From: a virus
Length of the DNA stretch: 64,000 nucleotides
Reading direction: 5' to 3' (one strand)
Virus record (IMG/VR): IMGVR_UViG_3300025872_004375
Location: 1-64,000 of that record
In this document: piece by piece, positions 46,423 through 63,516 of the stretch
Layout of the letters: the number at the start of each line of letters is the position of its first letter
How positions within the stretch are numbered: position 1 is the first letter of the stretch
The notes under the pieces: model-generated
What the model was told of the DNA's origin: nothing
Database searches by the model: none
The model's input: only the letters and a program-made list of their open reading frames with translations
Program-made: the position numbers and the translations under genes

Positions 46423-47386
46423 TTCTTTTGCTCACTGCTCTACCGACCTGCTTCTCCCAGTCCCTGTCTTCTGGGGGACGGACCTCGAGATTCTTGTCCC
46501 AAGCAGCTTGCATGACAGTGGGCCTCACTCCGCAACCTCTTGCGATGCTTATGAGAGCGTTGATATCCTTCGGAAAACAGTGTCCTCCGAAACCTCTCAC
46601 ATATCTTCCATCATGCGTAGGTACTGGACCTGGTACGGACCAATGGGTCTCTCCAAGTCTTTGATCGAATTTAGCGTATTCGACGACCTTATCATAGTCT
46701 ACGTTGAGACCGTCCTTGTCAAGCTCTTCGCATATTTGAGAAACTTCATTCGCGAACGCGACCTTCACTGCAAGAAGGCAGTTGGTCGTGTACTTCACCA
46801 TCTCTGCTGTGGTAGAGCTCGTCTTGATGATTGGGACTCTTGGGAAAGCTCGCATGAAGATGTTTCTGACAGTGTTGATATACGGTCGCGGCCCTCCGAG
46901 GACTATCCTTCCCTGAGTGCGCATATCATCGAGCGCATTCGCTTCAGTGAGAAACTCCGGATTGAAGACAACGTGAAGATCTAGATCGCTAAATCTCTTG
47001 TTCCACTTCTCAGTTGATCCTGGTGGTACGGTTGACTTTATCACGGCGATTCTTTGTGGGCTGTCAGCCCCGTAGGGAGCTGACGCTATGAGTTCAAGGA
47101 CATCTTCGACTATTCTTGTGTCAGGTGATCCGTCCTCATACATGGGAGTAGGAACACAAACAAAGTAAACTCCAGAAAACCCTGAGGTCCCTTCACACTC
47201 CCTGACAAACTCAGTGATTGAGCTGGGGTACACGACGTCTCTCGTAATTTGTCTTGTAAAACCTGATATGCCTCCGCGAGCAGATTTGCCAATCTTGTCG
47301 TAGACGTAAACTGTTTCGCCCCTTTCTGAGAACACAGTGGTAAGACTACCGCCGACGAATCCCTGTCCGATGACTGCTATACTCAT
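46415..47386 (-). CDS. UDP-glucose/GDP-mannose 6-dehydrogenase-like protein, short
   Basis: The 323-aa protein has the NAD-binding start [18 protein letters not shown], the signature [16 protein letters not shown], a helix block ([20 protein letters not shown]) and the catalytic cysteine loop [13 protein letters not shown]. It ends about 50 residues later, so the C-terminal UDP-binding domain of normal enzymes (about 430 aa in total) is missing. The ATG at 47386 overlaps the Gmd stop by 4 nt. Oxidation of a UDP- or GDP-sugar to its uronic acid is the inferred role; whether the short form is active is open. Confidence 0.85.
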
Positions 47387-48357
47387 TTGATCCTCTCTAC
47401 CTCGTTGTTGAAATCAGACTCAAACATGAGTCTAGCAAGTTCTGTGAATGTCGTCTTGGGAGACCAGCCAAGGCTCTTTCTTGCTTTCGAGCAGTCTCCC
47501 TCCAACCAAGGGACCTCGTGAGGACGTTTGAGCCTGTCATCGATGACAAGGTGCTTGTCAACATTGAGACCTGCAATGTCGAATACCTCATGCAAAAACT
47601 CACGCACAGTGTGAGTCTCACCGGTGGCGATCACGTAATCATCAGGCTTGTCCTGCTGGAGCATCATCCACATTGCCTCGACATAGTCCTTGGCGTATCC
47701 CCAGTCGCGGAGAGCATCGAGATTGCCAAGAGCGATCTTGTCCTGTAGACCGAGCTTGATTCGTGCTGCGGCGAGGGTGATCTTCCTGGTGACGAATGTC
47801 TCACCTCGACGTGGACTCTCATGGTTGAAGAGAATACCGGAGGAGGCGTGGATGCCGTATCCCTCGCGATAGTTCCTCGTGAGACCGTGAGCAAAGACCT
47901 TGGCACAGGCGTATGGGGACGCTGGCATGAGACGGGTGGTCTCACTCTGCGGATGCTCTGGATTGTCGCCGTACATCTCAGAGGAGGATGCCTGATAGAA
48001 TCGACAACCAGGTTGCATCGTACGGATACACTCAAGAAGACGAAGAGGGCCCATTGCAACTGTGTCTACCGTTTCCTCTGGAACCTCAAAAGACACTCGA
48101 ACGTGTGATTGTGCTGCAAGATTGTAGACTTCATCAAACTTCTGGTTTGCGAACAAACGATAGAACGCACCAGAATCGTTCATGGAACCGTAGATTAGTT
48201 GAAAATTTGGGTGAGAGAGAAGATGATCGATTCTGTCAGTTGCAAGGAGTGATGTTCTTCGTTTCACTCCAACGACTCGATAACCTTTCTCGATGAGAAG
48301 CTCGGCAAGGTAGCTTCCATCCTGGCCGGTCACGCCTGTTATGAGAGCAGTCTTCAT
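47383..48357 (-). CDS. gmd: GDP-mannose 4,6-dehydratase
   Basis: The 324-aa NAD(P)-dependent enzyme makes GDP-4-keto-6-deoxymannose, first step to GDP-L-fucose. Visible are [20 protein letters not shown] (cofactor loop), [31 protein letters not shown] (catalytic Ser/Glu), the YACAK active-site Tyr/Lys ([10 protein letters not shown]), and the substrate loop [17 protein letters not shown] with [19 protein letters not shown]. These are classic Gmd sequences. I start at the ATG at 48357; a TTG at 48363 has better spacing from a GAGGTG site and is possible. The gene follows the fucose synthase gene, whose product uses the next intermediate. Confidence 0.95.
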
Positions 48358-48359
48358 GC

Positions 48360-49286
48360 TCAAATGGTAACACCTCGAACACGAGGGTATCTTTCTGTGA
48401 ACGCTTTTATTGTCTCTCGAAGTCCATCACGAAGCGGTGTGTACTCACCCTTCCATCCAAGAGAAAGAAGTTTCTCGTTTGATGACGGCTTCTGGTACTG
48501 GCCATCAGGCTTGCTCTTGTCGAAATTTCCTCCGCCCTCGTAACCGATCTCTTCAGCGATCATATTAGCGAGTGCCATGATAGAGACCTGCTCAGGATTC
48601 CCGATGTTGATAGGTTCTTCTCCGTCATAGTTCTCGGCTAACCACAGGATGATCTTTGCGGCATCACGAGCAAACGTGAACTCTCTCAGGGGCTTGCCGC
48701 TCCCCCAGATATCGACATGATCGTAACCGTAGATCTTGGCCTCATGAAACTTCCTGATGAGAGCAGGTATCACGTGTCCGCTGTTGAGGTCGTAGTTGTC
48801 ATTAGGACCGTAGAGATTATTCGGAATGACAGAGATGAAGTTGCAACCGTGTTGCTGGCGGTAGGCTCGAGTCTGTACTTCCAGCATTCTCTTTGCGTAG
48901 GCGTATCCGAAGTTTGATGGGTGCGGAGGACCCAAGTGAAGCTGGTCCTCCGTCAGAGGATACTTCACGTAGGGAGCGTCTGGGTAGATGCAGGTTGAGA
49001 GGACAGAAACAAGCTTGAGACCAGATTCCTTGCAGGCTCTCATGACATTCATATTCATCTTCATGTTGTCATCAAAGAAGTCTGCTACAAAATCTGTGTT
49101 GGCCTTGACACCGCCAACACGAGCCGCGCAGTGAATGACGGTAGCAGCGTGACCCGGGTCTAGAGATGTGATTACCGAAGCAGACTCTGTGAGATCGCAA
49201 TCTTTCGAAGAGATCCCTGTTGAAGAATTGTGAAGGGCAACAATCTCGCTTCCAAGAAGTCCAGTCGAGCCAGTTATCAGATGCAC
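48360..49286 (-). CDS. fcl: GDP-L-fucose synthase
   Basis: The enzyme epimerises and reduces GDP-4-keto-6-deoxymannose to GDP-L-fucose. Sequence marks are the cofactor loop [27 protein letters not shown], the catalytic STCIYP serine block, and [11 protein letters not shown] (Tyr-x3-Lys). [20 protein letters not shown] and [16 protein letters not shown] follow, both typical of Fcl. I start at the GTG at 49286 (308 aa) because GGGAG lies 6 nt upstream; an ATG at 49301 lacks a ribosome site. It acts with Gmd downstream to supply fucose to the fucosyltransferase at 56597-57358. Confidence 0.95.
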
Positions 49287-49326
49287 GGTGATCTCCCACA
49301 TTTCGCAAGATACAGAAGTTCAACTC

Positions 49327-50082
49327 TCAGGTATCAACAATCTCTTCGCTATGGAAGAGAAGATCCCAGAAATATTCAAACATCCAGCCGAAACCCTCAC
49401 CGTTTGGCATTCCGCCGTACTGCTCCATGACTTTCTCGCTTACCATTGCAGCAGGGTTGTATCCGTGGTTTCCAACGCAGAAGCCTGTGAAGTATTTGCT
49501 GTTGTCAAACTTGTCGAGACATTTGAGATACACGCTTTTCTCATTCTGGAGTATGAGATGCTTTGGCACAGCAAAAAGACCATGTATCCCGACTTTGTAT
49601 TTCTTCGGTAAGTCTTTGTCAAAAAGCTCTCTGTAGAGAGAAAGATGGTTACCGTAGAAGAAGTTTACTCTTCGAAAGTTCTCATCGTCAAGCTGCTCTT
49701 GAAAGAACTTGTTCTGCTGTTCTACTTTGTAAGAGAAATTGTGATAATCTCTCTCACCAAGATTCTTGAGCATGCTCAAGAGAGCAGGTTGATGGTCGAA
49801 CGGATTCCCTTGAATAAAAGCAGTTGTTTCTGCTAAATTTTCATAATTCTTCACTATGTGATAGAGATACGTGTGAGATTCTCTTCCAACGTTTGGAAGA
49901 TCACAGTGCAAGATGCTTCCTTCGCGCCTATAGACTGGTACGCGGTCAAACTCTCTTGCACTCAGTGAATTGTCTTTGTGATACACGAAGACGTTGTACT
50001 CACTCTCGAGCTCGTGTATCCACCTTGTGTCCTCTCTATAGTGAGCCACTACCAAGTCTTTCTTTTTCAAATTAGCTCTCAC
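49327..50082 (-). CDS. DUF3431-type putative glycosyltransferase
   Basis: The protein has 251 aa starting with GTG at 50082 (GTGA overlap). DUF3431 traits are visible: LVVAHYREDTRWIHELES at the N-terminus, NVFVYHKDNS, and the block LPNVGRESHTYLYHIVKNYE with a FIQGNPFDH motif. Family members look like GT-A glycosyltransferases in surface-sugar loci, but chemistry is not established. Here it sits between the fucose genes and the carbamoyltransferase gene. No membrane segment is seen. Confidence 0.72.
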   Translation of the reverse strand: MRANLKKKDLVVAHYREDTRWIHELESEYNVFVYHKDNSLSAREFDRVPVYRREGSILHCDLPNVGRESHTYLYHIVKNYENLAETTAFIQGNPFDHQPALLSMLKNLGERDYHNFSYKVEQQNKFFQEQLDDENFRRVNFFYGNHLSLYRELFDKDLPKKYKVGIHGLFAVPKHLILQNEKSVYLKCLDKFDNSKYFTGFCVGNHGYNPAAMVSEKVMEQYGGMPNGEGFGWMFEYFWDLLFHSEEIVDT

Positions 50083-51653
50083 TTTTTTGCGAAGATGTAA
50101 TCTTCAACGACAACATAATCGAGCTCTGTGTTGTCAAGAACGTACAGAGCATCTTCTATTGTAGTGAGGATCGGCAATCCGCGAATGTTGAATGACGTGT
50201 TCAAAAGAACCCCATGTCTCGAAATTTTCGAGAACTCTGTAAGAAGTTCATAGAACTTCTTGTGTGAATCGCTAGTGACAGTTTGCAATCTTGAAGTCCC
50301 ATCGGCATGAGTGATCGAAGGCAGCAGATTCTTATACTCGTCTTTCACTCTCGGAGCAAAACCCATGTATTCTAGATTGCTGTAGTCTCGAGTCTCAAAG
50401 TATCGTGGAGCATCTTCTAGTTTGCAAAAGGGAGCAAAGGGTCTATACCACTCCCTAAACTTGACCTTTGAGTTCAAGATGTCTTTCATCTCGAGAATGC
50501 TTGGGTCGCAGACTATACTTCTGTTACCAAGAGCACGAGGTCCAACTTCCGAGTCTCCATACACGAAGCCGATGATCTTACCTTCCTTGAGCAACCTGGC
50601 TGTCTCTGCGGCAGTAGTCTTTCTAGCGCCTCTCCTTTCAACAATTTCACCGAGACTTCCTTTGTCTAGCAAGGGAATACCATTGTAAGTTACGTTAACT
50701 CTTTCTTGGGGTCTCGTCATCGAGAATAAAGCTCCCAGCGAAAGACCGCAATCATTCGGATTGGGAGGAACAAAAACTTTCACACCAAATTCGTTCCTGA
50801 TTCTCTCATTCAAGAGAACATTCAACCCACCACCGCCCGTGATTATGACTGGGTAGTTCGGAAACTTTTTGACAATTTCCGTGAACACGCTGATGAACGC
50901 TTCTTCAAATGCTTTTTGAGCAGTAGCAGCCAGATCGTAAGCTTCCTGCTTATCAAACTTTGCATTTGCCATGGGGTTCTTCCATGGATCCTCAGAGTTT
51001 AGAAGACTAAGGCCGGTCAACTTTGACAGCTTTTGATAGTCTCTATCAAAGAAGAAGTCTCTGAAGTGTGGGAGAAGACTCTCTCGAGGGGAACCATAAG
51101 CGCATAGACCCATCATCTTTCCAGCTAAAGAAAGCTGGTGTCTACTCTTTTCGCTTATCTCCTTGAGTATCGATGCGCAAAGAAGGTAACCTCCGCCAAA
51201 ATCTGATTTTACGTTCTCTATGAGCTGGACGTTGCTTCTGCTACCATAGTAAATGTTGAAGAATCCGTCACTGCCACCACCATCAAATGAGAAGATAATC
51301 GATTCATAGAAGGGAGACTGGTAGAAAGCGCTGGTAGCATGACACTCGTGATGCTTTCCAACCATGTAGATATTTTGAGTCTCAAAAACTCTTGAAAGAA
51401 TGCTGACATCGTTAATCCCGCCATCAGCTGCAATGGCAACTGCGTCAAACCCGTCAAACTGCCAGTTGTTTATAGCGATGTCCTTACACTGACGTAAAAG
51501 AGACTCAATCTGTTCACCAGAATTGTCGACGTGAAGTCTAAAATAGCGCTTCTTCACCAAGCGCTCAAGTTCAATTACATGATATCTCTGGGTCTTGGAG
51601 TTGTAGAACGAAACGTTCGCGTCGTGACCAGCATAGATGCTTACGATTCTCAT
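50079..51653 (-). CDS. Carbamoyltransferase, NodU/TobZ/CmcH family
   Basis: The 524-aa enzyme transfers a carbamoyl group to a sugar or other hydroxyl using carbamoyl phosphate and ATP. The N-terminal Kae1-like domain has metal-binding KHHECHATSAF (His residues), FSFDGGGSDGFF and IITGGGGLNVLLNERIR. The C-terminal YrdC-like part shows EVGPRALGNRSIVCDP, KFREWYRPFAPF, HADGTSRLQTV and NTSFNIRGLPI, all family signatures. The ATG at 51653 overlaps the methyltransferase stop as ATGA. It most likely decorates a glycan made by this cassette; the acceptor is unknown. Confidence 0.92.
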   Translation of the reverse strand: MRIVSIYAGHDANVSFYNSKTQRYHVIELERLVKKRYFRLHVDNSGEQIESLLRQCKDIAINNWQFDGFDAVAIAADGGINDVSILSRVFETQNIYMVGKHHECHATSAFYQSPFYESIIFSFDGGGSDGFFNIYYGSRSNVQLIENVKSDFGGGYLLCASILKEISEKSRHQLSLAGKMMGLCAYGSPRESLLPHFRDFFFDRDYQKLSKLTGLSLLNSEDPWKNPMANAKFDKQEAYDLAATAQKAFEEAFISVFTEIVKKFPNYPVIITGGGGLNVLLNERIRNEFGVKVFVPPNPNDCGLSLGALFSMTRPQERVNVTYNGIPLLDKGSLGEIVERRGARKTTAAETARLLKEGKIIGFVYGDSEVGPRALGNRSIVCDPSILEMKDILNSKVKFREWYRPFAPFCKLEDAPRYFETRDYSNLEYMGFAPRVKDEYKNLLPSITHADGTSRLQTVTSDSHKKFYELLTEFSKISRHGVLLNTSFNIRGLPILTTIEDALYVLDNTELDYVVVEDYIFAKK

Positions 51654-52327
51654 ACACGCGCCTCCTTCTCGTTGTTTGCAGCTCTAAGAACAAAAACATG
51701 GTTCCCCACGCCTCCAGCGTGAGTTTTCCAATTCTCCTTTAGACCGCTTAGGTGTGGAGTTGACTTTTCTACTCTCCAGCCGTTCGACTCAAAGCTGCGC
51801 TTCCACCACGTCTCATCCTCAGCTATCAAATGAGAAACTTCAGTGTGATACTCTGGGATCCTATACGTACCGTTGTCTCCCATAGGGATAACGCACAGTA
51901 AAGAGGGGGCTACTTTAGCAAGCGTCTTGAGCATGTCACTCAGCTGATCTTCTGTTAAGTGCTCGAGCATGTCCTTCACTACAACGTGAGTGTAATCTCG
52001 AGAAGGTCTCTTCTCCCAGTCTTGGCAATTCCAACAACCATCAGGGGCATAAGCGAGTGCATACTCGCTTATGTCACATCCATCAGCCTTGATCTCTAGT
52101 ATTCTGAGAGCTTTGACCAGAAACCCCTTCGCGCAACCAACATCAAGAACGTAACTTTTCTCATCGAGCTCTAGATAGTCAGCTATTGCGATTGCTTCCC
52201 TAAGAGTTCGGCGTGGCATCCACCGATAATTCTCTAGCCATCCCTTGCCGGACTCTTTGCCTCTTTCAAAGTAGTCCTCATCATAAAAGTCACCAGTGAA
52301 AGGAGACCTCGAACTTTCATTACTCAT
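51650..52327 (-). CDS. SAM-dependent methyltransferase, class I
   Basis: The 225-aa protein has motif I KSYVLDVGCAKGFLVKALR, an acidic end of strand 2 (DGCDISEYALAYAP), and VVVKDMLEHLTEDQLSDML corresponding to motif IV. The WWKRSFESNGWRVEK strand pair closes the Rossmann fold. This looks like a small-molecule or sugar methyltransferase, not a DNA methylase, since no target-recognition domain is present. Its ATG overlaps the radical SAM stop as TAATG and its own stop overlaps the carbamoyltransferase start. Confidence 0.88.
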   Translation of the reverse strand: MSNESSRSPFTGDFYDEDYFERGKESGKGWLENYRWMPRRTLREAIAIADYLELDEKSYVLDVGCAKGFLVKALRILEIKADGCDISEYALAYAPDGCWNCQDWEKRPSRDYTHVVVKDMLEHLTEDQLSDMLKTLAKVAPSLLCVIPMGDNGTYRIPEYHTEVSHLIAEDETWWKRSFESNGWRVEKSTPHLSGLKENWKTHAGGVGNHVFVLRAANNEKEARV

Positions 52328-53376
52328 TATGCGAACTCGTTGTGGCTGGTAGGAGTAAGAGCGTCATCTATCAACTCATTTTGAGCGGCGTACTTGCAGT
52401 ATGAGCAAGCATGATATCTTCTGACTCCGTTAGAATCTTGAACTCCATTATAGAAGTCAATGATTCCGTTTATATCACAAATTTTGAACTCTGGGTTCAC
52501 TTTGTAGGAGTTTTCTACTGCCATCTCTGCGCAGGGACAAACGTAAACATTCCCATCAGTGAAGACAAACGGCTTGAAATTGTGCATGTAGCAGTGATTG
52601 TTTCTTCTCTCCCCCTTCCAGTTGAAGTCTGACAGGAACGCGTACTTAAGGTTTCTTCCTTCGATGTCAACTCTTATCCTTTCGAGATCCTTTCTGATCG
52701 TGTCAGCGTCTTTGATAGAGTTGAAAGCTATTCTAGTAGGAATCTTTTCCCTTTCCACAAATTCGAGCATTCTCTCAAAATGCTCAGGCGTTTGCTTGTT
52801 CTTTGACAGCTTCTTACCCTTCGTCTCAGACCAGTTTCCATGGATGTTCGGATTTTGTGAAGTCTCATGAGCTAGATCCCAAATGTAAGCAGCGCCAATT
52901 TCAAGATTGGGATACTCTCTCAGAGACGCGATATCATATTCGTAGCCCTCTGTGAAACCGTACATCCCTAGTCTTATCCAAGTGAGCTTGTCCCAAACTC
53001 CTCCGACCTTGTGCCACTTGTTGATCATCGTTCCGTTGGTTACGACACCAACTTTTAGACCCTTTTCATAAGCATAGTTTACTACTCTGCCAAAATCTGG
53101 GTGGAGAGTGGGCTCTCCACCACCGGTCAACTCCATCCCTGTTGCTCCAAGCTCAACGAAGGAGTCGATTGCCTTCTTCATTTGATCAAGTGTGAGCATT
53201 TCCTTAAGAGCTCGATTCGCAAAGCAACAAAAGCTGCACGTCAGATTGCAAGGATTGCAAGGAGACATGTGAAACATGACTGGAGAGGGTCTCTTGCCGT
53301 CCTGCAAGAGTTGTATCTTTGGTAGATGCTTCAGTAGCTTCGAAACGTTAGAAGTGTATGTCTTTCCCTCAACCAT
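52327..53376 (-). CDS. Radical SAM enzyme with SPASM-like C-terminus
   Basis: The protein has 349 aa from the ATG at 53376, with AAGGAG 8 nt upstream. The radical SAM cluster motif is CNLTCSFC (Cys43, Cys47, Cys50), then ELTGGGEPTLHPDF (the GGE motif) and GVVTNGT. The C-terminal part has clustered cysteines, YVCPCAEM and YHACSYCKYA, as in SPASM or twitch auxiliary Fe-S domains. Substrate unknown. It sits in a tight unit with the methyltransferase and carbamoyltransferase and likely modifies the same product. Confidence 0.88.
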   Translation of the reverse strand: MVEGKTYTSNVSKLLKHLPKIQLLQDGKRPSPVMFHMSPCNPCNLTCSFCCFANRALKEMLTLDQMKKAIDSFVELGATGMELTGGGEPTLHPDFGRVVNYAYEKGLKVGVVTNGTMINKWHKVGGVWDKLTWIRLGMYGFTEGYEYDIASLREYPNLEIGAAYIWDLAHETSQNPNIHGNWSETKGKKLSKNKQTPEHFERMLEFVEREKIPTRIAFNSIKDADTIRKDLERIRVDIEGRNLKYAFLSDFNWKGERRNNHCYMHNFKPFVFTDGNVYVCPCAEMAVENSYKVNPEFKICDINGIIDFYNGVQDSNGVRRYHACSYCKYAAQNELIDDALTPTSHNEFA

Positions 53377-54074
53377 CAATAGTTCTCCTTATAGCCGTGA
53401 ACGATGGGGTAATTTCGCCAATCAGGCTGTCTATGAACCTCAGCCAGCCACTCGGCAGCCTCATACTCAAACCCGCATCTGCTGAAGTGAAATGTCATGT
53501 TACAGTCAAAAGCGCAAATGCTTCTGTCGCTAATCTCACTCGAGATTGGAGGATTATAGAACGTCGTGTCATGCTCTTCAAGAGAATAGTTCACTGCACT
53601 TTCATAGACCTGCATGAAAGAACTTGACTTATAGACACTACCACCGCAGGCTCCAAACCTGCCTGATCCTACACAGCCGCGATTTCTGAGTATCTCGCTG
53701 ATTCCTTTCGGAGGCATTTGGTTGGCAGTCGGACCCTTTATATCGAATCCATCAAAATCAACTCTTTTCTGCACTAGAACATCATCCTCAAGAATGATGA
53801 TGTAATCTGTCTGAGCATGCTCGACAGCCATCTTGTGGCGATTCCAGGCTTCGATTGTTCTTTCAGAGTTGTAGAAACCTCTGTCAACACCCAAAATGTT
53901 GTGACGCATGATAAATTTCGCGTCATAGACTTCAGCAATGTCTGTGAAGTCGCTGCCGCCGTCAGAGATCAATAGCACCGGACTGTCCGGATAACAGGCA
54001 CGAAAACTCTTCATGGCCGCTTCGGTAGCTTTCTTGTTCTTGTAAACTTGGAAGAAAGCGCCCAATGTCTTCAT
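53376..54074 (-). CDS. GT-A fold glycosyltransferase
   Basis: The protein has 232 aa from the ATG at 54074 (MKTLGAFFQVYKNKKATEAA), with GGAG 6 nt upstream. The GT-A fold is supported by the early SPVLLISDGGSDFTDIAEVY, the DxD-type IIILEDDVLVQKR and a GACGGSVYKSSSFM loop. A C-terminal aromatic/His stretch (FHFSRCGFEYEAAEWLAEVH) may hold acceptor sites. Family not named. A longer frame to 54140 would overlap the preceding gene and lacks a ribosome site. Confidence 0.75.
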   Translation of the reverse strand: MKTLGAFFQVYKNKKATEAAMKSFRACYPDSPVLLISDGGSDFTDIAEVYDAKFIMRHNILGVDRGFYNSERTIEAWNRHKMAVEHAQTDYIIILEDDVLVQKRVDFDGFDIKGPTANQMPPKGISEILRNRGCVGSGRFGACGGSVYKSSSFMQVYESAVNYSLEEHDTTFYNPPISSEISDRSICAFDCNMTFHFSRCGFEYEAAEWLAEVHRQPDWRNYPIVHGYKENY

Positions 54075-54111: not shown

Positions 54112-54927
54112 CTATTGGGCCATCTGGTAAAATAACTCAAAGTTTCTGTGAACAGTGTTGACGTTGACTAAAACGAGAAAATCACTTACTCTTTCCTTGA
54201 GCAGATATCCGAGAGCTATCTGGTCGTTCCCAAGAAGATCATTCGGTAGCATTTTGCACGTTAGCACTTCATCAATCATCTTATGAAGTTTCTTTGCTCC
54301 ATCACGATCGGTACCGAACAAGCCTCCCATAACATAAGAACGATTGTCGTTGAAGTATTCGGTTGGAAGTCTTTCTGCAGAGAACAGATCAGAGTATGGG
54401 TAGACATAGGCTTGAATCAAAGACTTTCCCGGATGTTTGCTGATCTCATTCATGAACTGATTGCCTGGGAAATCTTTGCTGGAGCCAAAGTCAAAGTCTC
54501 CAACCAACCGAGAGAAGCCTGCGTCCATCCACACAAAGTAATCAGTGTCAAAATAGTTTTGCTCTGCAGCGTTGTTCAACCACGGGAACTTTGAAAACTG
54601 GATTATCGAATAGAGGCTGGTCTTGCACTCGATTCGATGTGGATCCTTAACTTTAGCTTGATACTCAGCTTTGTTAAGAAGCTCATCCATCTTTGGCTTG
54701 AGATGAAAGTATGGAACTTCATCGAGTCTTTGGTTGATGATTTTAGTTTCTCTGCCTTCTGGTCTGTTCTCGAGTATGAAAGAGTTTAGCGACTCCTCAC
54801 AATAAATGACCATGGAACAACTGAGCTTGAGAGTCTTGGAGAACCACTCGTAGTACTCTTCCATCCCTCTACCGTCGAACTCCTTACGACCGATGTCGAA
54901 GAGAGCAGTCACAACTGTCGCTTTCAT
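54112..54927 (-). CDS. HtrL/YibB-type glycosyltransferase
   Basis: The protein has 271 aa from the ATG at 54927, which directly follows the stop of the gene upstream. The N-terminus MKATVVTALFDIGRKEFDGR fits the HtrL/YibB (WlaTC-like) family. Other family-like parts are VWMDAGFSRL (DxG-type acidic patch), SYVMGGLFGTDR and LGNDQIALGYLLKE. These enzymes occur in lipopolysaccharide and capsule clusters, mostly uncharacterised. No membrane segment is seen, so it should be cytoplasmic. Confidence 0.78.
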   Translation of the reverse strand: MKATVVTALFDIGRKEFDGRGMEEYYEWFSKTLKLSCSMVIYCEESLNSFILENRPEGRETKIINQRLDEVPYFHLKPKMDELLNKAEYQAKVKDPHRIECKTSLYSIIQFSKFPWLNNAAEQNYFDTDYFVWMDAGFSRLVGDFDFGSSKDFPGNQFMNEISKHPGKSLIQAYVYPYSDLFSAERLPTEYFNDNRSYVMGGLFGTDRDGAKKLHKMIDEVLTCKMLPNDLLGNDQIALGYLLKERVSDFLVLVNVNTVHRNFELFYQMAQ

Positions 54928-55887
54928 TTACTCTCCATGTCTGCTCATTATCTGTAGCACTTTTGGCACGTACACATCAGAAACTATGTGAGACCAGTCG
55001 AAGTTCTTTGCGTAATCTCTTATCTGCTCTCTCATCTTCACAGATGCGTTTCTATTTTCTATAATCGCGCTCTCTACGAGACGTTTGTCGTCGATGTCTT
55101 TTTCTGGTATTACGCTGATAAAAGGCAGACTAGTGTCAAGATTTGCAGATGCGTATTCGGATATCACGATCCCAAGACCCGCTGATAACGCCTCTAGACA
55201 AACGAGAGGGTGAGCTTCTCCGTCGCTCAACAGGACCAGGTTCGCAAAATCTGTAAGACCTTCATAGATTTGAGACTTCTTCCACTCCCCAAGATAGTCG
55301 GGAGAAGAAACATCGAATTTTGGGTCTACGCAATTTCCAACGAACTTTAGACCAGAGACTCCTTGAAATTGTGACTGCCTCTTCCTCGGGTCTATCTTCG
55401 CAAGATAGACAGATTCATTGGGTTTGTTGCACTTCTCTGTGAAGTGAAATAGATCAGTCCTGACTCCGTTAGGTATCACATGTAGCTTCTCTTGTGGAAT
55501 GTTCGCCTTCTTGTAAACTTCTGCGATTCCTGAGCTGAGACAGAACACGTCAATGTTCGCATTGACAAAGCCCCAAAAGATGTTTCTATAGCTTGGGTCC
55601 CACCTGTTTGGTTGTTCTAGATAGCCATAGTGGCTTGTGACCGCTACTTTCTTACAATGAAAGTACTGAGACAGAAACACGAACTCATCATATTGAATGT
55701 GTACGAAGTCAGGTTGCAGACTGTTCACTATGCCTACGATTAGATTCGGGTCTCTTGTGTTGACTATCTCTACACGATGACCAAGACTTTCTAGCGTTTT
55801 TCGATAGTCCTCGATGAGAATCTCAACAGCTCCCCAGCCTTGAGGGGGTATTGACATTGCTCCAGGACCGACTATGCAAATCTTCAT
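54928..55887 (-). CDS. GT4-like glycosyltransferase
   Basis: The 319-aa protein has the GT4 start MKICIVGPGAMSIPPQGWGA followed by VEILIEDYRKTLESLGHRVE. The inter-domain LHVIPNGVRTDLFHF motif and the donor block VLLSDGEAHPLVCLEALSAG follow. It is rather short for GT4 (usually 350-400 aa), so the C-terminal domain may be trimmed. Its ATG at 55887 overlaps the GT6 gene stop as ATGA. Specificity unknown. Confidence 0.85.
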   Translation of the reverse strand: MKICIVGPGAMSIPPQGWGAVEILIEDYRKTLESLGHRVEIVNTRDPNLIVGIVNSLQPDFVHIQYDEFVFLSQYFHCKKVAVTSHYGYLEQPNRWDPSYRNIFWGFVNANIDVFCLSSGIAEVYKKANIPQEKLHVIPNGVRTDLFHFTEKCNKPNESVYLAKIDPRKRQSQFQGVSGLKFVGNCVDPKFDVSSPDYLGEWKKSQIYEGLTDFANLVLLSDGEAHPLVCLEALSAGLGIVISEYASANLDTSLPFISVIPEKDIDDKRLVESAIIENRNASVKMREQIRDYAKNFDWSHIVSDVYVPKVLQIMSRHGE

Positions 55888-56600
55888 CTAACACCTGCGA
55901 ATCTTGGAAACTCTTTCATATCTTTGTCAAGGTGAACGAACTTCGTCGGAAAGTTGTTCCTTACGTGTTCATATCCGTGTTGTGGTTGCGCAAACCCAGG
56001 GTGTAAGGTCTTTACAGAACTCTTTCTTTGTAAGAAGTATTTGTTCATGTGAGACTCATCGTGCCAAACAGCTACGATACCTTTCTCATAGTCTTCATCA
56101 ACTTTTGCCTCGAGCTCCTCTACCATCTTCACAAATTCAGTAGACTTACCGCCCCAAAGACAGCCTTGCCAGTAGTTGCTAAGATCGTAGTATCCGTCGA
56201 AGATGTTTGCTAGAGATCTGGTGTCAGTTTCGAATGTCCCGATCTTACCAATGAACCCTGGGTGTTGCACTCCGACGAGCTCATCAAGAACTTCTTCTCC
56301 AACTTCGTCGATACACCATAAGTCTGCGTCGACGAAAAAGACGTAATCGAAATCAAGCAATCTATCTCTTGCTTGATTAATGAACTTGAAGCGATGTAGA
56401 GTGATGAAGGGCCATTTTGCGTGTTCAATTTGATGAAGAGAGACTCTTTCTCTCTTGAATGTCGAATCAGAAACATCATCAGTGAACACAACATAGTTCT
56501 TCTCGAACTTTCGCAAGAAGTTCTTCTCTATTCCTTCGTAGAAGCCATCGAAGAACTTTCGATATCCTGCTGTGCCGATGAAAATTATGCCAACGTTCAC
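55884..56600 (-). CDS. GT6 glycosyltransferase (ABO/alpha-1,3-galactosyltransferase family)
   Basis: The 238-aa retaining GT-A enzyme resembles vertebrate ABO transferases and bacterial relatives that put Gal or GalNAc alpha-1,3 on galactose. A metal-binding DxD is present in FFVDADLWCIDEVGEE. DELVGVQHPGFIGKIG and the donor loop YWQGCLWGG follow. The catalytic stretch IVAVWHDESHMNKYF carries the conserved Glu and is nearly identical to ABO enzymes. FVHLDKDMKEFPRFAG is close to the end. Many bacterial GT6 have NxN instead of DxD; this one keeps DxD. The GTG at 56600 gives a 4-nt GTGA overlap with the GT11 gene; a GTG four codons earlier (56612) is an alternative start. Confidence 0.9.
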   Translation of the reverse strand: MNVGIIFIGTAGYRKFFDGFYEGIEKNFLRKFEKNYVVFTDDVSDSTFKRERVSLHQIEHAKWPFITLHRFKFINQARDRLLDFDYVFFVDADLWCIDEVGEEVLDELVGVQHPGFIGKIGTFETDTRSLANIFDGYYDLSNYWQGCLWGGKSTEFVKMVEELEAKVDEDYEKGIVAVWHDESHMNKYFLQRKSSVKTLHPGFAQPQHGYEHVRNNFPTKFVHLDKDMKEFPRFAGVR

Positions 56601-57358
56601 AATCTCACCCACCCAGGCTCATAAATAGTCTCCCAGGTCTTGGGACCTTTCTCCCCAAACCATTGATTCGGAGAGATTACGGCTTTGCTTCCCGAGAGCC
56701 AAGCTCCCCACCAGCTGAATGATGAGTTTGCGATCACGTGGATCGGACACATTGACATCATGCAAAGCGAAACTTCTTGTGAAGAGTCATCGACAGCAAT
56801 TTGTTCTGGCAGATTCTCTTTGCACCACTTCGGATCATCGCTAAAAGCCAGAATTCTTGCGTTTGGTATGTTCTGAAGAACGACACTAATCGCGCTATTA
56901 TAGTAGTCTGAGTTGAGATTCTTATGATAACTCGAAAGGCTAAGATAGTCTCCCCTGCGTATGTGTAGGCTGCAGATTGGGCTTCCGTCCATGGATGAAA
57001 GCCTTTCTCTTGCAACTTCAACGGTTTCTTTCTTGAAGGAGAAAATCTTTCTCAAATGGTCTTGTACGTGATTGAAGTATCTCCCAGACTGGAAGTAACC
57101 ATAGAGATCAGTCTCATCTGGTACGAGAAACACGCTAGGGTCAAACTCAAAAACTCTCTCTTGATATTGGGTGAGATTTTGAGTTGTGTCTCTGTCAGAG
57201 ACCTGTACTCCTTCCATCTCAAAAACTTTAGTGAGATCTTGTTCAGTTGGCAAGCAAACCTTGTAGCCTCTGGCGAAACCAACAGAGTAGAGAGTGGCAA
57301 ATTGGAACATCTGGTTCCCAAGTCGCCCATTCTTACCGATACTTTGCGAAGTCAGCAT
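56597..57358 (-). CDS. Alpha-1,2-fucosyltransferase, GT11
   Basis: The 253-aa inverting enzyme transfers fucose from GDP-fucose to the 2-OH of galactose. The GT11 motifs are clear: GRLGNQMFQFATLYSVG at the N-terminus, the donor motif SLHIRRGDYLSLSSYH, and the third motif ANSSFSWWGAWLSGS. Size and layout are typical of bacterial GT11. The donor would come from Gmd and Fcl in this same cassette. The next enzyme, GT6, uses a Fuc-alpha-1,2-Gal acceptor in the best-known examples, and the two genes overlap as GTGA. Confidence 0.93.
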   Translation of the reverse strand: MLTSQSIGKNGRLGNQMFQFATLYSVGFARGYKVCLPTEQDLTKVFEMEGVQVSDRDTTQNLTQYQERVFEFDPSVFLVPDETDLYGYFQSGRYFNHVQDHLRKIFSFKKETVEVARERLSSMDGSPICSLHIRRGDYLSLSSYHKNLNSDYYNSAISVVLQNIPNARILAFSDDPKWCKENLPEQIAVDDSSQEVSLCMMSMCPIHVIANSSFSWWGAWLSGSKAVISPNQWFGEKGPKTWETIYEPGWVRL

Positions 57359-58029
57359 GTAATACCATACACTCTAGCGTAGTGATGTGCAACAGCTCTT
57401 GGAACTCTTGAGTCATACTTCGGATTGTGAACGTGATGGTAGGTGATCAAGCTCTCTTGTAGATTGCCGAGTCTAGCGTGGGGTAACATTCTCATCCACA
57501 GATCCATGTCCTCGGCGAAAGGATAGAACTCCCAGTAAGAGCCTGATTTCTCGATCAAGGAACTTCTAAAAACGACAGACGGATGCCCAATAGGGTTTCG
57601 ACTGTTGAAGAGCCAAGAACAGCACTCTTCATGAGTTAGCGGGTAAGAAGTGGATGAAGTCCCACTAGACTCTGAGACTATCATTTGTGTACCGAGAACG
57701 TCAACTTCTCCTGTTTCTAAGACTTCTATCTGCTTTTTGAGTTTGTGTGGTAACCACTCATCGTCAGCATCTTGCCTCGCGATGTATTTGCCTTGTGAAA
57801 TTTTGATTCCTACGTTTAATGCAGGGACTATTCCTGGCTGAGATTCAACAACTTTCACTCTAGAGTCTTTGATAGACTTTGCAATTTCGAGAGTTGAATC
57901 TACGCTACCGTTTACGATGATGATGACTTCAATCTCTCGATAATCCTGCTTCACTACGCTGTCAACTGATCTCACAAGAGTCTCTGCAGAGTTTCTAGCA
58001 GGAATGATGACCGAGACGAGTGGATTCAT
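57352..58029 (-). CDS. GT2 glycosyltransferase
   Basis: The 225-aa GT-A enzyme begins NPLVSVIIPARNSAETLVRS (GT2 opening) and has VIIIVNGSVDSTLEIAKS, GKYIARQDADDEWLP with the DxD (here DADD), and the acceptor loop FAEDMDLWMRM with an ED motif. It lacks membrane helices, unlike processive GT2 enzymes. The start ATG at 58029 overlaps the previous stop as ATGA, and its end overlaps GT11 by 7 nt. It may add the sugar that GT11 then modifies. Confidence 0.9.
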   Translation of the reverse strand: MNPLVSVIIPARNSAETLVRSVDSVVKQDYREIEVIIIVNGSVDSTLEIAKSIKDSRVKVVESQPGIVPALNVGIKISQGKYIARQDADDEWLPHKLKKQIEVLETGEVDVLGTQMIVSESSGTSSTSYPLTHEECCSWLFNSRNPIGHPSVVFRSSLIEKSGSYWEFYPFAEDMDLWMRMLPHARLGNLQESLITYHHVHNPKYDSRVPRAVAHHYARVYGITC

Positions 58030-59948
58030 CTAGATCTCTCTCTCCAACCGACCATTGAAGCCGGCTGTTCTCTTCTAATCTTCACGCTGGGAGTGGGATT
58101 GTTGAAGTCAAGTCTCTTGTGGAAAATCCATCCTCCCATTTCACTTTCCATCTTCGCTGCAAGACTTCTGATTTCTTCTTCAGTAACTTCCGACCATGAC
58201 TTTTCGAAGAACATGTTATTCTCAGGAACGTCTTCTTGAGTTCTATTGTAGAGACTCATCCAGTGCTTTGACCAGTAATTTTTGTAAGTGTAGATCTTTC
58301 TCTCTATGTCATACCACGAGTAGTGATAAACTCCTGGCAGCTGCTCAGTGACAGCGTTAATCCACGATTCGTAATAAGCTAAAGCTTCTTCATTGCGCAA
58401 AAGCGCATGTTGTCTAGAGATCTCTCCTTCTCGAGACATAAAGGTCGCAAAGGGAACACTTTCTCCAGTGTCGCTGTAAATGTAATCGCAGCCATCAGAG
58501 CCAGAAGAATACATTGAGCCGTCAGCATCATAAGCTCTTTGGTCTAGTGGGACGCCATGAGTGATTCTTGGATTGTTGCGACTAAGCCTCCATTTCCATG
58601 GGTTGACGTCAACTCTTACTTTCCCTTCTCGACCCCAAAATTCGACAAGTGGTAATGCGATAATGTCAACTTCTCTTGGGAAGCTCTTAACAAGATTTCT
58701 AATCTTCGAGTAATCTTCTTCATGAACTACCTCGTCGATATCAACTTGCCAGCAGAAGTCACCCGTGCAACGCTCTCGAGCAATCGCTTTCTGCTGTCCG
58801 TCATAAAGAGCGAATCTCTTGTCGTCCCAGTCTCTCGCGTGTTGAAACGGCTTCAGACGAGGCTCAGACTCAGCGAGCTCCTGCAGCTTCTCCCAGGTTC
58901 CGTCCGTTGACCCACCGTCAACGACGATGACTTCATCACAGAACCCGAGAAGAGAGTTGATGCTCTCAATCCAGGGATACCTCTGCTCAATGCAGTTCCT
59001 CGTCTGCGTGTAACCGCTAATCTTCGGTTCCCACTCCATTGCGCTCCTGATGCCGTTCCAGAATGTTTCCCTGGCGGCGTAAAGGTAGGATTCAGTGTCG
59101 AGTGGATCGCTGGACGTGAACCACTCCTCATTTGCATGCTCGACGTTGTCATTGGTGTGAAGCTTGCAACCGAGCAGCTTAGCCTCGATGACCATTCGAG
59201 GGCAAGTGTCGCCGCCCTTTGGGAGGTAGACGAGACCCTCAGCAGTCGAAAGCTTCGTGAGGAAGTCTCCAGGAGAGACTCCGTGGACTATCTCGTAGTC
59301 ATGCCCCTGTGACTTGCACCACTCTACTGCGTCATCGACTCCCTTGATCCAGGACGTTGAGCCCAATACAATCCAGCCCTTTCTCTCAGCATTTGAGTTC
59401 TTCTCCCTGAGCTGCTTGAGAAGAACCCAGAAGTCCTCTTCGAAGACTGAGGACAGGACACTCTGTGGCACGTTCTCGAGAAATGGGAAGAGCTTCCAGT
59501 ATCTCTTCTGCTGTCTCTCAGACATCCACCAGAGAGACTTTGCTCCAAGGTAGAAAGTCGAGGCGAGCTTGCCCGCACTGTCGTTCTGACAGTCACAGGG
59601 CTTCTTCTCTGCTACCTCGTGCTTCTCAGGAGAACGGTACTTGCAGAACTTGTAGTCGTACTCGAGCACTGAGTACTTCATGTTAGCAACTATTGTTGGG
59701 ATGAGGTCTCTGTTCAACCCCGCCCAGTTCCCAAAGATCCAGAACTTGCTGTGACCCTCCTCAAGGTTCTGAAGAGAGACGTCCTTCGTGTGGAGTTTGA
59801 ATACCCTGAATGGTGATGACTTTATGAGAGCCTCAGTTGTGAGCTCCGCGCCACCCACCAGGTCCTCAGCAAAGAAGTCTGCGACGAACACAACATCGCA
59901 GACGCTCGGAACGTGCTTGTTTTGAATTTGAAATTGGCTACTGAACAT
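58026..59948 (-). CDS. Two-domain glycosyltransferase (GT4-like plus GT2)
   Basis: The protein has 640 aa from the ATG at 59948 (MFSSQFQIQNKHVPSVCDVV); a GTG at 59975 is an alternative, with no clear ribosome site for either. Residues about 20-320 resemble a GT-B enzyme (VFVADFFAEDLVGGAELTTE, GWIVLGSTSWIKGVDDAVEW and LVYLPKGGDTCPRMVIEAKL). From about 330 a GT2 domain of the WaaE type begins: SLLGFCDEVIVVDGGSTDGT, then CWQVDIDEVVHEEDY with the DxD. It is the first gene of the sugar cassette in transcription order, just after the double hairpin. Confidence 0.85.
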   Translation of the reverse strand: MFSSQFQIQNKHVPSVCDVVFVADFFAEDLVGGAELTTEALIKSSPFRVFKLHTKDVSLQNLEEGHSKFWIFGNWAGLNRDLIPTIVANMKYSVLEYDYKFCKYRSPEKHEVAEKKPCDCQNDSAGKLASTFYLGAKSLWWMSERQQKRYWKLFPFLENVPQSVLSSVFEEDFWVLLKQLREKNSNAERKGWIVLGSTSWIKGVDDAVEWCKSQGHDYEIVHGVSPGDFLTKLSTAEGLVYLPKGGDTCPRMVIEAKLLGCKLHTNDNVEHANEEWFTSSDPLDTESYLYAARETFWNGIRSAMEWEPKISGYTQTRNCIEQRYPWIESINSLLGFCDEVIVVDGGSTDGTWEKLQELAESEPRLKPFQHARDWDDKRFALYDGQQKAIARERCTGDFCWQVDIDEVVHEEDYSKIRNLVKSFPREVDIIALPLVEFWGREGKVRVDVNPWKWRLSRNNPRITHGVPLDQRAYDADGSMYSSGSDGCDYIYSDTGESVPFATFMSREGEISRQHALLRNEEALAYYESWINAVTEQLPGVYHYSWYDIERKIYTYKNYWSKHWMSLYNRTQEDVPENNMFFEKSWSEVTEEEIRSLAAKMESEMGGWIFHKRLDFNNPTPSVKIRREQPASMVGWRERSR

Positions 59949-59988
59949 GCAGAATAGTTGTCTTCTGCGCGTCACCAGTAAACAGAAG

Positions 59989-60076: not shown

Positions 60077-62386
60077 CTAAGACTGCTCATCCAGCTCAGG
60101 GACTCTCTCAAGGAGGAACTTATACCGCTTCCCAGTCTTGTTGAACCTGATCGAGAGGAAGTCTGGCTCTTCTATCAGAGTGTAGTCTCCCCTCTCATTT
60201 CTGAGATGAAGATCGCCGGTGTAGATGTTAGCCCAGCGAGCAGTTGAGCTTCCAAGGTCCAGCGTTCTGTCACCGCTCGGTAGTATCGTTGTGCTCACCT
60301 TCGCATTTGCGAACGATACTTGATCAGTGTTGATGTCATTTCCGAATGTGGTGTTTCCATTGACGACGAGACTGCTGTTGACAGTGGTGGTTCCAGACGC
60401 GTTTCCAATTGTCAGAGTTGTTGCAGCTCCAGCAAAGTTCACAGTCGTAGCGACAGTATTGAAGACGCTCTGCGTTGTCTGGTTACCGACTAATGTCCCA
60501 CCCTGAATCGTTGTTGTTCCGCCATTTGCTCCGATTATGACTGATGAACCGCTCAGCGTGAGTTCCTGTGCAACCGATGTGTCTCCTGCTGCGATCCTGA
60601 GTCCAGCACCTGCGCCAATTGTACCGCTTACTACACCGATGGGCACACCATGTCTCTCGAGCTGGAAACCATTGTTTCCAGCATTCAACCGTATGAGCGC
60701 ACCGCTGATGACCAGGTTCTTGTTGCTAACAGCGCCGAACACCGCTGGGTTGCCAGCTCCGCCATCTTTGAAGTTGATGTACGAGAAGCCGTTGACTTGG
60801 AAGTCAACAATACCTCCGGTATTGGGGTTGAGCTCGATTGTGCTGCCCTTGGACGTGAGCTTTGATCCATCCGAAGAAGTTACGAAAGCTGTCGGTCCAC
60901 CAAGCTCAAGCTTACCAGCCCTAAACGCCTGATAATCAACAACATTTATCGCGGCACCCACAGCGGCCGCTGTGGGTGTTGTATCAGTTCTCGCAACCGT
61001 GAAGCCATCCGCGCTCTCATCCCAGAACATTGCAACGCTGTTCTCTCCGACGAGACCTCCTATGAAACCTCTATCGCTCAACGAGCCTGCAACCGAACCA
61101 GAAGCAAAGCCCAGGCCTATCACTGGGTCCTGGATCTCCATCACTGTGGAGTCGATCGTTGTCGTTGTTCCGCTGATGTAGAGGTCACCCTTGACAATCA
61201 GATTCTTGTTGACAGTCAGGTCATTGTTGACAGTTGTAGTTCCTGTGGCTGCACCGATATTGACAGTTGTTGCGGCACCTGCAACGCTGAGAGTCGTGAC
61301 AGTCGTATTGAGAAGGTCAAAAGACGTTTGAGTGGAGGTGATCTTGTTTGTACCAGCGCCCGACGTGCCATTGACTGCGAGGCTTCCTGCCACCGTTGTC
61401 GTGTCAGAAACAGCATTTCCAAGTGTGGTGTTACCGTCAACTGTAAGATCATTGTTGATCGACGTTGTACCGGTGGCAGCTCCAATCTCAAGCGTAGTTG
61501 CAGCACCGGCAAAATTGACCGTGGTTGCAGACGTATTGACGAGATTGAAAGTGGTAGATGTCGTTGTTAGATCGCCGCCGTTGACTGCAAGATCATTCGA
61601 AGCTGAAACCACACCGACGAGAGTTGAAGTCCCACCCACAGTGAGGTTCGCACCGGCCTGCAGGTCACTGGAACCACTGATCACTCCGCCGTTGCTAATA
61701 GAAGCGATAACCCCCGATGCAGTCTTGATGCTGAAGGACCCAGAGGTTATTACATTGCCACCGAATAAGGTGGCATTTGACCCAGCAGTGCCGACACCTG
61801 CATTTGAACCAGAGAAGTAGAAGACGACGTCCGTGCCCTTGTCACTCGCAGCAGTGATGGTCTCGCCAGTCCTTGCGCCCGTGAATGCAACAGTTCCTGA
61901 GTTGTAGATGACTCCCGCTGCCGTCTCAGTGAAGAAGTTCGAGCCACCACCACCACCAGTCGAAGCAATCGTAACTGCACCGTTAGAGCCCGTTGTGATC
62001 GTAACGTTGGTACCTGCAATGAGGTAGCTTGTTCCGTCTGCGAGCTTCGTGAGCGAACCGGTGAGACCAGCTGTCGTCGTCATTGCGCCGGATACGACGA
62101 GTCCGTTCCTTGCAATGACTTGATCACCAATGTAGAGCGGTGATCCACCGAACAGTGTGCCGCTGATTACGACGTCACCGCCGAACACCGTTGTTCCTCT
62201 AACTGTGTAATCAGGGCTTGCAGCCGGAGAACCCGGAGAACGAGCCGCTATGTTACCTGAGACAAAGAATACTGCGTCTACGCCAGGCAGCGAAGGATAA
62301 GTGGCATTGGGCCTGTTGGCAACAATGACCGATCCTGTGATTGCAACTATCGAGTTTGACCCCGATACGCTTCCAACTAACGCCAT
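60077..62386 (-). CDS. Fibre-like virion protein with internal repeats
   Basis: The 769-aa protein starts at the ATG at 62386 behind AAGGAG. The N-terminal 200 residues have repeats of an FFVSGN...TVFGGDVVISGTLFGG type. Three repeats of a 40-residue unit follow, with cores VNFAGAATTLEIGAATGTTS, SVAGAATTVNIGAATGTTT and VNFAGAATTLTIGNASGTTT. The C-terminal 60 residues (RWANIYTGDLHLRNERGDY, ending GKRYKFLLERV) are a domain shared with the next gene product. The beta-helix-like repeats suggest a trimeric tail fibre or spike. No enzymatic motif is seen. Confidence 0.8.
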   Translation of the reverse strand: MALVGSVSGSNSIVAITGSVIVANRPNATYPSLPGVDAVFFVSGNIAARSPGSPAASPDYTVRGTTVFGGDVVISGTLFGGSPLYIGDQVIARNGLVVSGAMTTTAGLTGSLTKLADGTSYLIAGTNVTITTGSNGAVTIASTGGGGGSNFFTETAAGVIYNSGTVAFTGARTGETITAASDKGTDVVFYFSGSNAGVGTAGSNATLFGGNVITSGSFSIKTASGVIASISNGGVISGSSDLQAGANLTVGGTSTLVGVVSASNDLAVNGGDLTTTSTTFNLVNTSATTVNFAGAATTLEIGAATGTTSINNDLTVDGNTTLGNAVSDTTTVAGSLAVNGTSGAGTNKITSTQTSFDLLNTTVTTLSVAGAATTVNIGAATGTTTVNNDLTVNKNLIVKGDLYISGTTTTIDSTVMEIQDPVIGLGFASGSVAGSLSDRGFIGGLVGENSVAMFWDESADGFTVARTDTTPTAAAVGAAINVVDYQAFRAGKLELGGPTAFVTSSDGSKLTSKGSTIELNPNTGGIVDFQVNGFSYINFKDGGAGNPAVFGAVSNKNLVISGALIRLNAGNNGFQLERHGVPIGVVSGTIGAGAGLRIAAGDTSVAQELTLSGSSVIIGANGGTTTIQGGTLVGNQTTQSVFNTVATTVNFAGAATTLTIGNASGTTTVNSSLVVNGNTTFGNDINTDQVSFANAKVSTTILPSGDRTLDLGSSTARWANIYTGDLHLRNERGDYTLIEEPDFLSIRFNKTGKRYKFLLERVPELDEQS

Positions 62387-62415
62387 GTGATCTCTCCTTT
62401 ACGAGTTTCAATGAT

Positions 62416-62423
62416 TATGTATA
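62416..62423 (-). promoter_or_regulatory. Candidate T4-late-type promoter element TATACATA
   Basis: On the minus strand the 47-nt gap before the fibre-like gene contains GTATACATAATC. The octamer TATACATA is one base from the T4 late consensus TATAAATA. Its end is 29 nt from the ATG at 62386, leaving a leader of about 20 nt that contains AAGGAG. The spacing is what a late promoter would need. An identical octamer lies before the scaffold-like gene. Confidence 0.45.
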
Positions 62424-62433
62424 CGACTGCGAT

Positions 62434-63516
62434 CTAATCAAGAGGTTGAAGCATCATCTTGTAGCGCTTTCCTGTCTTGTTGTTGATGACGCAGAGAAAC
62501 TCTTCTTCCTCAAGGATTGTCCAGTCTCCACGATCGTTCCGCAGGTGTAGGTCGCCCGTGTACACGTTCTGCCAGCGGAGTGCAGGAGTTCCAAGATTGT
62601 AGGTGAAGTCGGAGTTGGGAGTGATTGAACCCTTCAAGCCAATCGATCCCGTGATCTGCATTGAGCCCGACATGAAGATGTTTGTTATGCCACCGGTATC
62701 AGTCGTTCCAATCCTGATATTCGTTGTAACACCCGGGTCTGCCCCAAGACCGAAGTTCAAGTTCTTTGTGCTACCAACCGCGGTGGCACCACACGCGAGG
62801 TTCAAAGTAACGTTGCCAGTCCTCGCAGAAGCGACGGTGAACGTGTGTGAAGTGCTGCCCGCAGAGTTTCCTATTGAGATGCTAGAAGCTGCACTGCCCA
62901 GAGAAATTGTCGATGCATTAGTGGGAAAAACGGTGACTGTGCTAGCGTTAGTTAGGAAGTCACCGCCATTTACTGTGAGGTCACCTTCAATTGCGAGATT
63001 ACCATTTGACTGCGTGGCAGTGATAGTTGCGTTACCGCCTGAGTCCTTTAGAGTGATGCTACCTGAGTAGACGGTATTTCCGCCGAAGAGAGTAGACTTG
63101 GTGCCGTCTCTTGAACCAGACACATAGAAGAAGACGTCCGCTCCCTTGTCACTTGGAGAGTCAACAGAGCTTTCACCACCTCGGAATGCTGCAGATCCAG
63201 TGGTGAAAATTGATCCGTTTGTCGTTGAATCGAAGAATTCGTCGACTGTTAGAGTGACACCGGTCAGAGTGCCCGAGATGTGAACGTCGCCACCAAATGT
63301 AACCCTGTCACTGCCGCCAGTAGAGCCAGAGATGAAAAGCCACGTGTCTGAACCTGTACCCGCAAGTATGAGGTTGCCAGTGTCGACGGTGACCCCATCG
63401 TTCCCAGCAGCCCCTGATCCGATGAGCAGAAGTCTCGGGTTTGTTGAGCTCCCCGATGCGATAAGCCTCTCTGCACGTATGCCAGAAGACTTGAAATCTG
63501 GTGGTCTTGTAGCCAT
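62434..63516 (-). CDS. Fibre-like virion protein, paralog of the 60077-62386 product
   Basis: The protein has 360 aa from the ATG at 63516 (MATRPPDFKSSGIRAERLIA), whose start overlaps the previous stop. It has repeats of the same type as its neighbour (WLFISGSTGGSDRVTFGGDV, FFYVSGSRDGTKSTLFGGNT). The C-terminal 60 residues (RWQNVYTGDLHLRNDRGDW, ending GKRYKMMLQPLD) match the neighbour's end domain. The middle lacks the three 40-residue repeats. The shared end domain likely acts as a chaperone-like tip or virion anchor. Confidence 0.8.
   Translation of the reverse strand: MATRPPDFKSSGIRAERLIASGSSTNPRLLLIGSGAAGNDGVTVDTGNLILAGTGSDTWLFISGSTGGSDRVTFGGDVHISGTLTGVTLTVDEFFDSTTNGSIFTTGSAAFRGGESSVDSPSDKGADVFFYVSGSRDGTKSTLFGGNTVYSGSITLKDSGGNATITATQSNGNLAIEGDLTVNGGDFLTNASTVTVFPTNASTISLGSAASSISIGNSAGSTSHTFTVASARTGNVTLNLACGATAVGSTKNLNFGLGADPGVTTNIRIGTTDTGGITNIFMSGSMQITGSIGLKGSITPNSDFTYNLGTPALRWQNVYTGDLHLRNDRGDWTILEEEEFLCVINNKTGKRYKMMLQPLD

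Follow-up and report, generated by a model that had tools for sequence, protein, structure and literature searches.

The window analyzed here, a stretch of 64,000 nucleotides, comprises bases 1–64000 of an 81,484-base IMG/VR virus record. Its minus strand carries a tightly packed run of genes from about 41.6 to 60.0 kb. On the upstream side of this run, at 60077–63516 and beside the glycan genes, lie tail-fibre-like and structural genes encoding long repeat-rich proteins with a common C-terminal end (GDLHLRN.RGD...EE..F......KTGKRYK). The genes relevant to this work were the following:

44863–45963, minus strand: UDP-galactopyranose mutase (GLF), above the cut-off of TIGR00031, in the same cassette.
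47383–48363, minus strand: GDP-mannose 4,6-dehydratase (Gmd), with 438 bits against TIGR01472 (cut-off 415).
48360–49301, minus strand: probable GDP-L-fucose synthase (Fcl/WcaG), with NF047922 as the best NCBIfam model (5e-75) and a match to PF01370.
54112–54927, minus strand: HtrL/YibB-family protein, a recurring cassette member.
54928–55887, minus strand: GT4-like glycosyltransferase, directly downstream of the GT6 gene and overlapping it by 4 nt.
55884–56600, minus strand: GT6 retaining glycosyltransferase of 238 aa, with DxD, YWQGCLWGG and WHDESHMN.
56597–57358, minus strand: GT11 fucosyltransferase-family protein of 253 aa, with HIRRGDY, FSDD and NSSFSWWGAWL.
57352–58029, minus strand: GT2 glycosyltransferase, directly upstream of the GT11 gene.
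58026–59975, minus strand: two-part glycosyltransferase with a GT2 domain in its C-terminal half, marking the upstream boundary of the variable glycan segment.
60077–62386, minus strand: tail-fibre/virion-structural-like repeat protein with partial matches to PHROG_6002 and PHROG_4527.

Both reading frames of the GT11-GT6 pair were intact, and the coordinates and motifs that an earlier note on this DNA had assigned to them agreed with the reading frames and profiles. The 4-nt overlap described there is real when the GT6 start is placed at the GTG at 56600: it spans 56597–56600 (GTGA), and on the minus strand GT11 ends in AGA TTG TGA and GT6 begins with GTG AAC GTT. The upstream GTG at 56612, chosen by a mechanical ORF caller, would give a protein of 242 aa and an overlap of 16 nt. 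The overlap was exactly 4 nt in most of the cultured-phage relatives of the pair. An ORF artefact or a chance resemblance was considered as an explanation of the pair and rejected.

The two family assignments proposed earlier were recovered by profile searches. The GT6 protein matched PF03414 (E=1.5e-26, 93 bits, cut-off 25) and PHROG_3317 (1e-63), and the GT11 protein matched PF01531 (9.1e-28) and PHROG_2644 (4e-71); on these profiles, both identifications are firm. Structure prediction, which the earlier note had proposed as a check, pointed the same way. The AlphaFold2 model of GT6 (pLDDT 93.2) had BoGT6a as its top PDB match (4ayj; TM 0.86/0.89, 30% identity), followed by the human ABO transferases, and the best 50 PDB fold matches were all GT6 enzymes with a TM of about 0.81–0.88. 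The profile, the modelled fold, the catalytic Glu, the WHDES motif and the DxD together place the predicted protein in CAZy family GT6, the ABO-type family of retaining alpha-1,3 enzymes with a GT-A fold.

The residues of the GT6 protein were compared in an alignment of 117 viral and 79 bacterial rows, in which DxD and NxN were scored by alignment columns. The DxD corresponds to D91/D93 (numbering from the start at 56600). It was found in 117/117 viral rows, and NxN in 54/79 bacterial rows. The observation that the gene keeps a DxD which many bacterial GT6 lack was thus correct, but this is a general trait of phage GT6 and nothing special to the gene in the window. The catalytic Glu is E182, equivalent to Glu303 and located inside W179-H180-D181-E182-S183. 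In BoGT6a, the residues H122, T134, W189, H190, D191 and E192 take part in acceptor-galactose contact or catalysis, and this enzyme was shown to act on 2'-fucosyllactose (PMC3961637, 2014). The alignment placed them at H113, T122, W179, H180, D181 and E182 of the window protein, respectively. Hence, the galactose contacts of the acceptor site are kept; the C-terminal part is too divergent for the fucose contacts to be placed.

BoGT6a, an A-antigen synthase, resembles the window GT6 in fold, in its length without a membrane anchor, in the catalytic Glu and in the acceptor-galactose residues. It differs in being a metal-independent NxN enzyme with Ala/Gly at positions 266/268, where the window protein has DxD and Gln/Cys. 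The human ABO transferases GTA and GTB share with the window GT6 the DxD, the WHDESH motif and the equivalents of His233, Thr245 and Glu303; at about 30% identity to them, the window protein has no membrane anchor and other donor-selecting residues. The reading of ABO positions 266/268 as Gln/Cys was upheld by the alignment, and these residues match neither ABO nor BoGT6a; the statement that the sugar is not predictable was also right. Almost all viral GT6 fell into two types, Q-G-C (54 of the 117 rows) and A-G-G (58 rows), the latter being the BoGT6a type. The Q-G-C motif is clade-wide, and we know of no characterized member.

The GT11 protein was also consistent with its family. A sequence search against the PDB returned nothing, and a fold search with the model (pLDDT 91.6) was used in its place. 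The matches were the fucosyltransferases NodZ, FUT8, POFUT1 and plant FUT1, but they were distant (TM 0.50–0.60 and E of about 1e-6 for NodZ, FUT8 and POFUT1), with no solved GT11 structure among the matches listed. H132, R134 and D137 of the HxRRxD motif were invariant in 34 viral GT11 sequences. By its profile, motif and predicted fucosyltransferase fold, the protein belongs to CAZy family GT11, the alpha-1,2-fucosyltransferase family with a GT-B fold. No enzyme with a measured activity was found in the literature for the viral clade to which the window proteins belong.

The Gmd, Fcl, GT11 and GT6 genes all lie on one strand in an operon-like run at 47.4–57.4 kb. The claim that GDP-fucose synthesis is encoded in the same cassette was sustained: Gmd scored above its cut-off, and Fcl had as its best match the GDP-L-fucose synthase model, whose equivalog cut-off of 500 bits it missed with a score of 253. 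Further cassette genes encode the HtrL protein, several GT2 and GT4 enzymes and a nucleotide-sugar dehydrogenase. Overlapping frames at 50079–53379 within the cassette encode a NodU-like carbamoyltransferase, a methyltransferase and a radical-SAM protein, of which the last two recur in another locus (L212). A PD-(D/E)XK exonuclease is encoded at 44076–44873, inside the sugar cassette, and its place is kept in relatives (order Gmd, exonuclease, GT4, GT4).

To measure the linkage of the two transferase genes, 80 viral contigs were retrieved with the window GT6, GT11 was sought with a profile and duplicates were removed, leaving 76 loci. The intended control queries, GT2 (57352–58029) and HtrL (54112–54927), retrieved 1 and 0 viral relatives, respectively, too few to be usable, and Gmd and GLF took their place. 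A GT11 gene lay within 8 kb of GT6 in 68/76 viral loci, compared with 22/75 Gmd-seeded and 14/74 GLF-seeded control loci, for which larger flanks of 10 kb were used. These values correspond to odds ratios of about 20- to 36-fold, with Fisher p values of about 1e-14 (Gmd) and 3e-19 (GLF) that are optimistic because related loci are not fully independent. Inside the controls, GT6 occurred in 9/36 loci with GT11 and in 2/113 without it (p 5e-5). Four of the eight viral GT6 exceptions start less than 0.5 kb from a contig end.

In the Q-G-C type, to which the window GT6 itself belongs, GT11 was immediately adjacent, upstream and on the same strand in 47/54 cases and lay no more than 3 kb away in the remaining seven. 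The distances among GT6 sequences correlated with those among GT11 sequences at r=0.95, and with those of the neighboring GT4 at 0.81–0.82, so GT11 and GT6 are tied more closely to each other in inheritance than to the next gene. The GT4-like gene itself was found again beside GT11-GT6 in many relatives. A nearby GT11, often adjacent, was also present in 49/80 bacterial GT6 loci; the unlinked ones include most of those from Dependentiae and Chlamydiae. As no GT11 was found near the GT6 of some viral loci either (L172/L186 and L188), GT6 does not always depend on GT11. Judged from these gene neighborhoods, the GT11-GT6 pairing is not due to chance, and the pair is functionally coupled and inherited together. 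The coupling suggested earlier was therefore corroborated, at a rate far above that of the controls and with a recurrence in bacteria.

The comparison of related phages revealed that the pair sits in an exchanged part of the cassette. The order Fcl-Gmd-exonuclease-GT4-GT4 was conserved, with Gmd mostly 85–91% identical, and the region that separates the GT2 genes from Fcl was exchanged. In two relatives (L190 and L191), this stretch contains a GT11-GT6 pair merely 35–42% identical to that of the window, and in other related phages it contains neither gene. Since this stretch is swapped while the rest of the cassette is conserved, GT11-GT6 behaves as an exchangeable end-module. L186 (4083–4778) and L188 (6672–7403) carry an A-G-G GT6 without GT11, together with a Gmd 88% identical to that of the window; the gene before GT6 in both is an unidentified ORF of about 266–269 aa.

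The phage GT11-GT6 pair is not new in kind: it is widespread in aquatic phages and has been deposited in public cyanophage genomes, so the rarity attributed to it at first was overstated. Among GenBank phage records, 71 contained a GT6 match and 102 a GT11 match; of the 71, 64 bear the name of a Synechococcus or Prochlorococcus phage. Adjacent pairs were present in the cultured Synechococcus phages S-PRM1, S-CAM9, B23, Bellamy, S-8S56, DSL-LC02/03 and SynMITS9220M01. These pairs share with the window the adjacency, the order, mostly the 4-nt overlap, the DxD and the Q-G-C motif; they differ in sequence (GT6 about 40–44% and GT11 about 36–40% identical to the window) and in the phage backbone. 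A standard Kyanoviridae cyanophage backbone was ruled out for the window by its TerL and portal proteins, whose nearest relatives were those of Microcystis phage Mel-JY01 and Flavobacterium phage immuto (39–43% identity). An epimerase encoded upstream of the pair in the Synechococcus phages was considered as GalE/Gne and rejected; GDP-fucose synthase was a slightly better match, all matches being far below cut-off, and the gene therefore gives no hint of the donor.

Two cyanophages with GT6 had already been counted in 2014 (PMC3961637). Gmd, Fcl and an alpha-1,2-fucosyltransferase were annotated in cyanophage S-SCSM1, which thus resembles the window in having a fucose gene set in a phage; the parts of that article available to us report no GT6 or A/B-type unit (PMC9602691). 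No paper that identifies this pair in phages as a pathway of the A/B type, and no report of a near-obligate, exchangeable GT11-GT6 module, was found in the open-access literature, subscription papers not being searchable. The mobile, near-obligate module is the most notable aspect of the pair.

The addition of fucose and then of a galactose-type sugar is the same two-step route that builds the human A and B blood groups. Since the pairing goes beyond chance and the genes are co-inherited, a sequential reaction of GT11 and then GT6, giving an A/B-type terminal unit, is our best reading of the locus (probability of about 0.68). In this pathway, Gmd and Fcl of the cassette would convert GDP-mannose to GDP-fucose in the cytoplasm of the infected cell. 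GT11 would then transfer L-fucose onto a terminal galactose, and the linkage formed would most likely be alpha-1,2. GT6, with its DxD holding a divalent metal for a UDP donor, would add Gal, GalNAc or another closely related galactose-type sugar in alpha-1,3 linkage to the same fucosylated galactose. The predicted product is a branched terminal trisaccharide of the type of the A/B antigens, and the pair may serve as an exchangeable end-module for a longer glycan that the neighboring GT2 and GT4 enzymes assemble. A comparable arrangement is known from E. coli O86, where GT11 and the GT6 enzyme WbnI contribute to the B antigen in one pathway giving Gal-alpha-1,3-[Fuc-alpha-1,2]Gal (PMC4202792); this is a bacterial O-antigen locus and not a phage, and it is likened here by description, not by sequence. 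The A/B-like pathway put forward in the earlier note is partly supported, through its families, overlap, fucose supply and coupling. Counted against it were the Fcl score below the equivalog cut-off, the alpha-1,3 activity of at least one GT11 enzyme (HhFT2), the Gln/Cys motif and the GT6 loci without GT11.

As for the carrier of the glycan, a virion protein, for example a tail fibre, is a proposal to which we give even odds, and the repeat protein at 60077–62386, which adjoins the cassette, is by its position a candidate acceptor. A host surface structure (LPS, capsule or exopolysaccharide), modified for instance to exclude other phages, would be compatible with the same two-step pathway and is somewhat unlikely; in the cyanophage literature, genes of this kind are interpreted as modifying the cell wall or LPS of the host (PMC9602691). 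No convincing transmembrane segment was detected in the checked cassette ORFs at 38.8–63.5 kb, where hydropathy over 19 residues peaked at 1.57, and this region accordingly gives no sign of a flippase, polymerase, ligase or GtrA/GtrC-like protein. This would favor, short of proof, an acceptor located in the cytoplasm, for example a virion protein, as would the tail-fibre-like genes next to the cassette, although host machinery could serve in place of the phage proteins.

The two enzymes could also act in sequence and yet produce a unit other than A/B, with GT11 forming another fucose linkage or using another GDP-sugar, with GT6 using another donor, or both. The main doubt on the predicted alpha-1,2 linkage comes from within the GT11 family, as the characterized HhFT2 is an alpha-1,3-fucosyltransferase (PMC4202792). 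That on the predicted GT6 role comes from the unstudied Gln/Cys motif, which is unlike that of the A and B enzymes. An Fcl-like epimerase of uncertain substrate beside the pair in some phage relatives, and the NCBIfam name "glucosyltransferase" for its GT6 subfamily, whose cut-off the window protein does not reach, would fit a different sugar as well. Nevertheless, Gmd and Fcl in the window favor GDP-fucose and the acceptor-galactose contacts are kept, and a non-A/B unit appears quite improbable. An equally low probability is given to GT11 and GT6 being simply two glycosyltransferases that are common in the large glycan cassettes of phages and act at unrelated positions of the glycan: the many glycosyltransferases of the cassette and the high variability of the GT2-to-Fcl segment among related phages would suit it, but the linkage over controls, the fixed adjacency and order in the Q-G-C type, the inheritance tighter than with the next gene and the repeated linkage in bacteria speak against it.

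If the sequential A/B-type pathway is true, A/B-type epitopes would be made widely by environmental phages, beyond animals and some bacteria, and by GT6 enzymes that always carry DxD. It would also bear on the movement of GT6 genes between vertebrates, bacteria and viruses and on why phages put fucosylated glycans on their products, and it would provide new enzymes for the synthesis of blood-group-type oligosaccharides. A more ambitious and unlikely version would see in the pair a near-obligate end-cap, swapped between cassettes that are otherwise conserved, with an A/B-type terminus and a third donor specificity (Gln-Gly-Cys, neither A nor B), serving aquatic phages as a system of antigenic or receptor variation of the virion.

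An earlier paper states that archaea have no GT6 (PMC3961637). Two contigs assigned to Pacearchaeota and Omnitrophota MAGs (L336 and L333) carried a DxD GT6 that grouped with the phage Q-G-C clade, and they are perhaps mis-binned viral contigs. Additionally, two viral contigs (L034 and L038) each encoded two GT6 proteins, one Q-G-C (or Q-G-S) and one A-G-G, in the same cassette as GT11, Gmd and Fcl, and two different terminal sugars may possibly be made by one phage in these cases.
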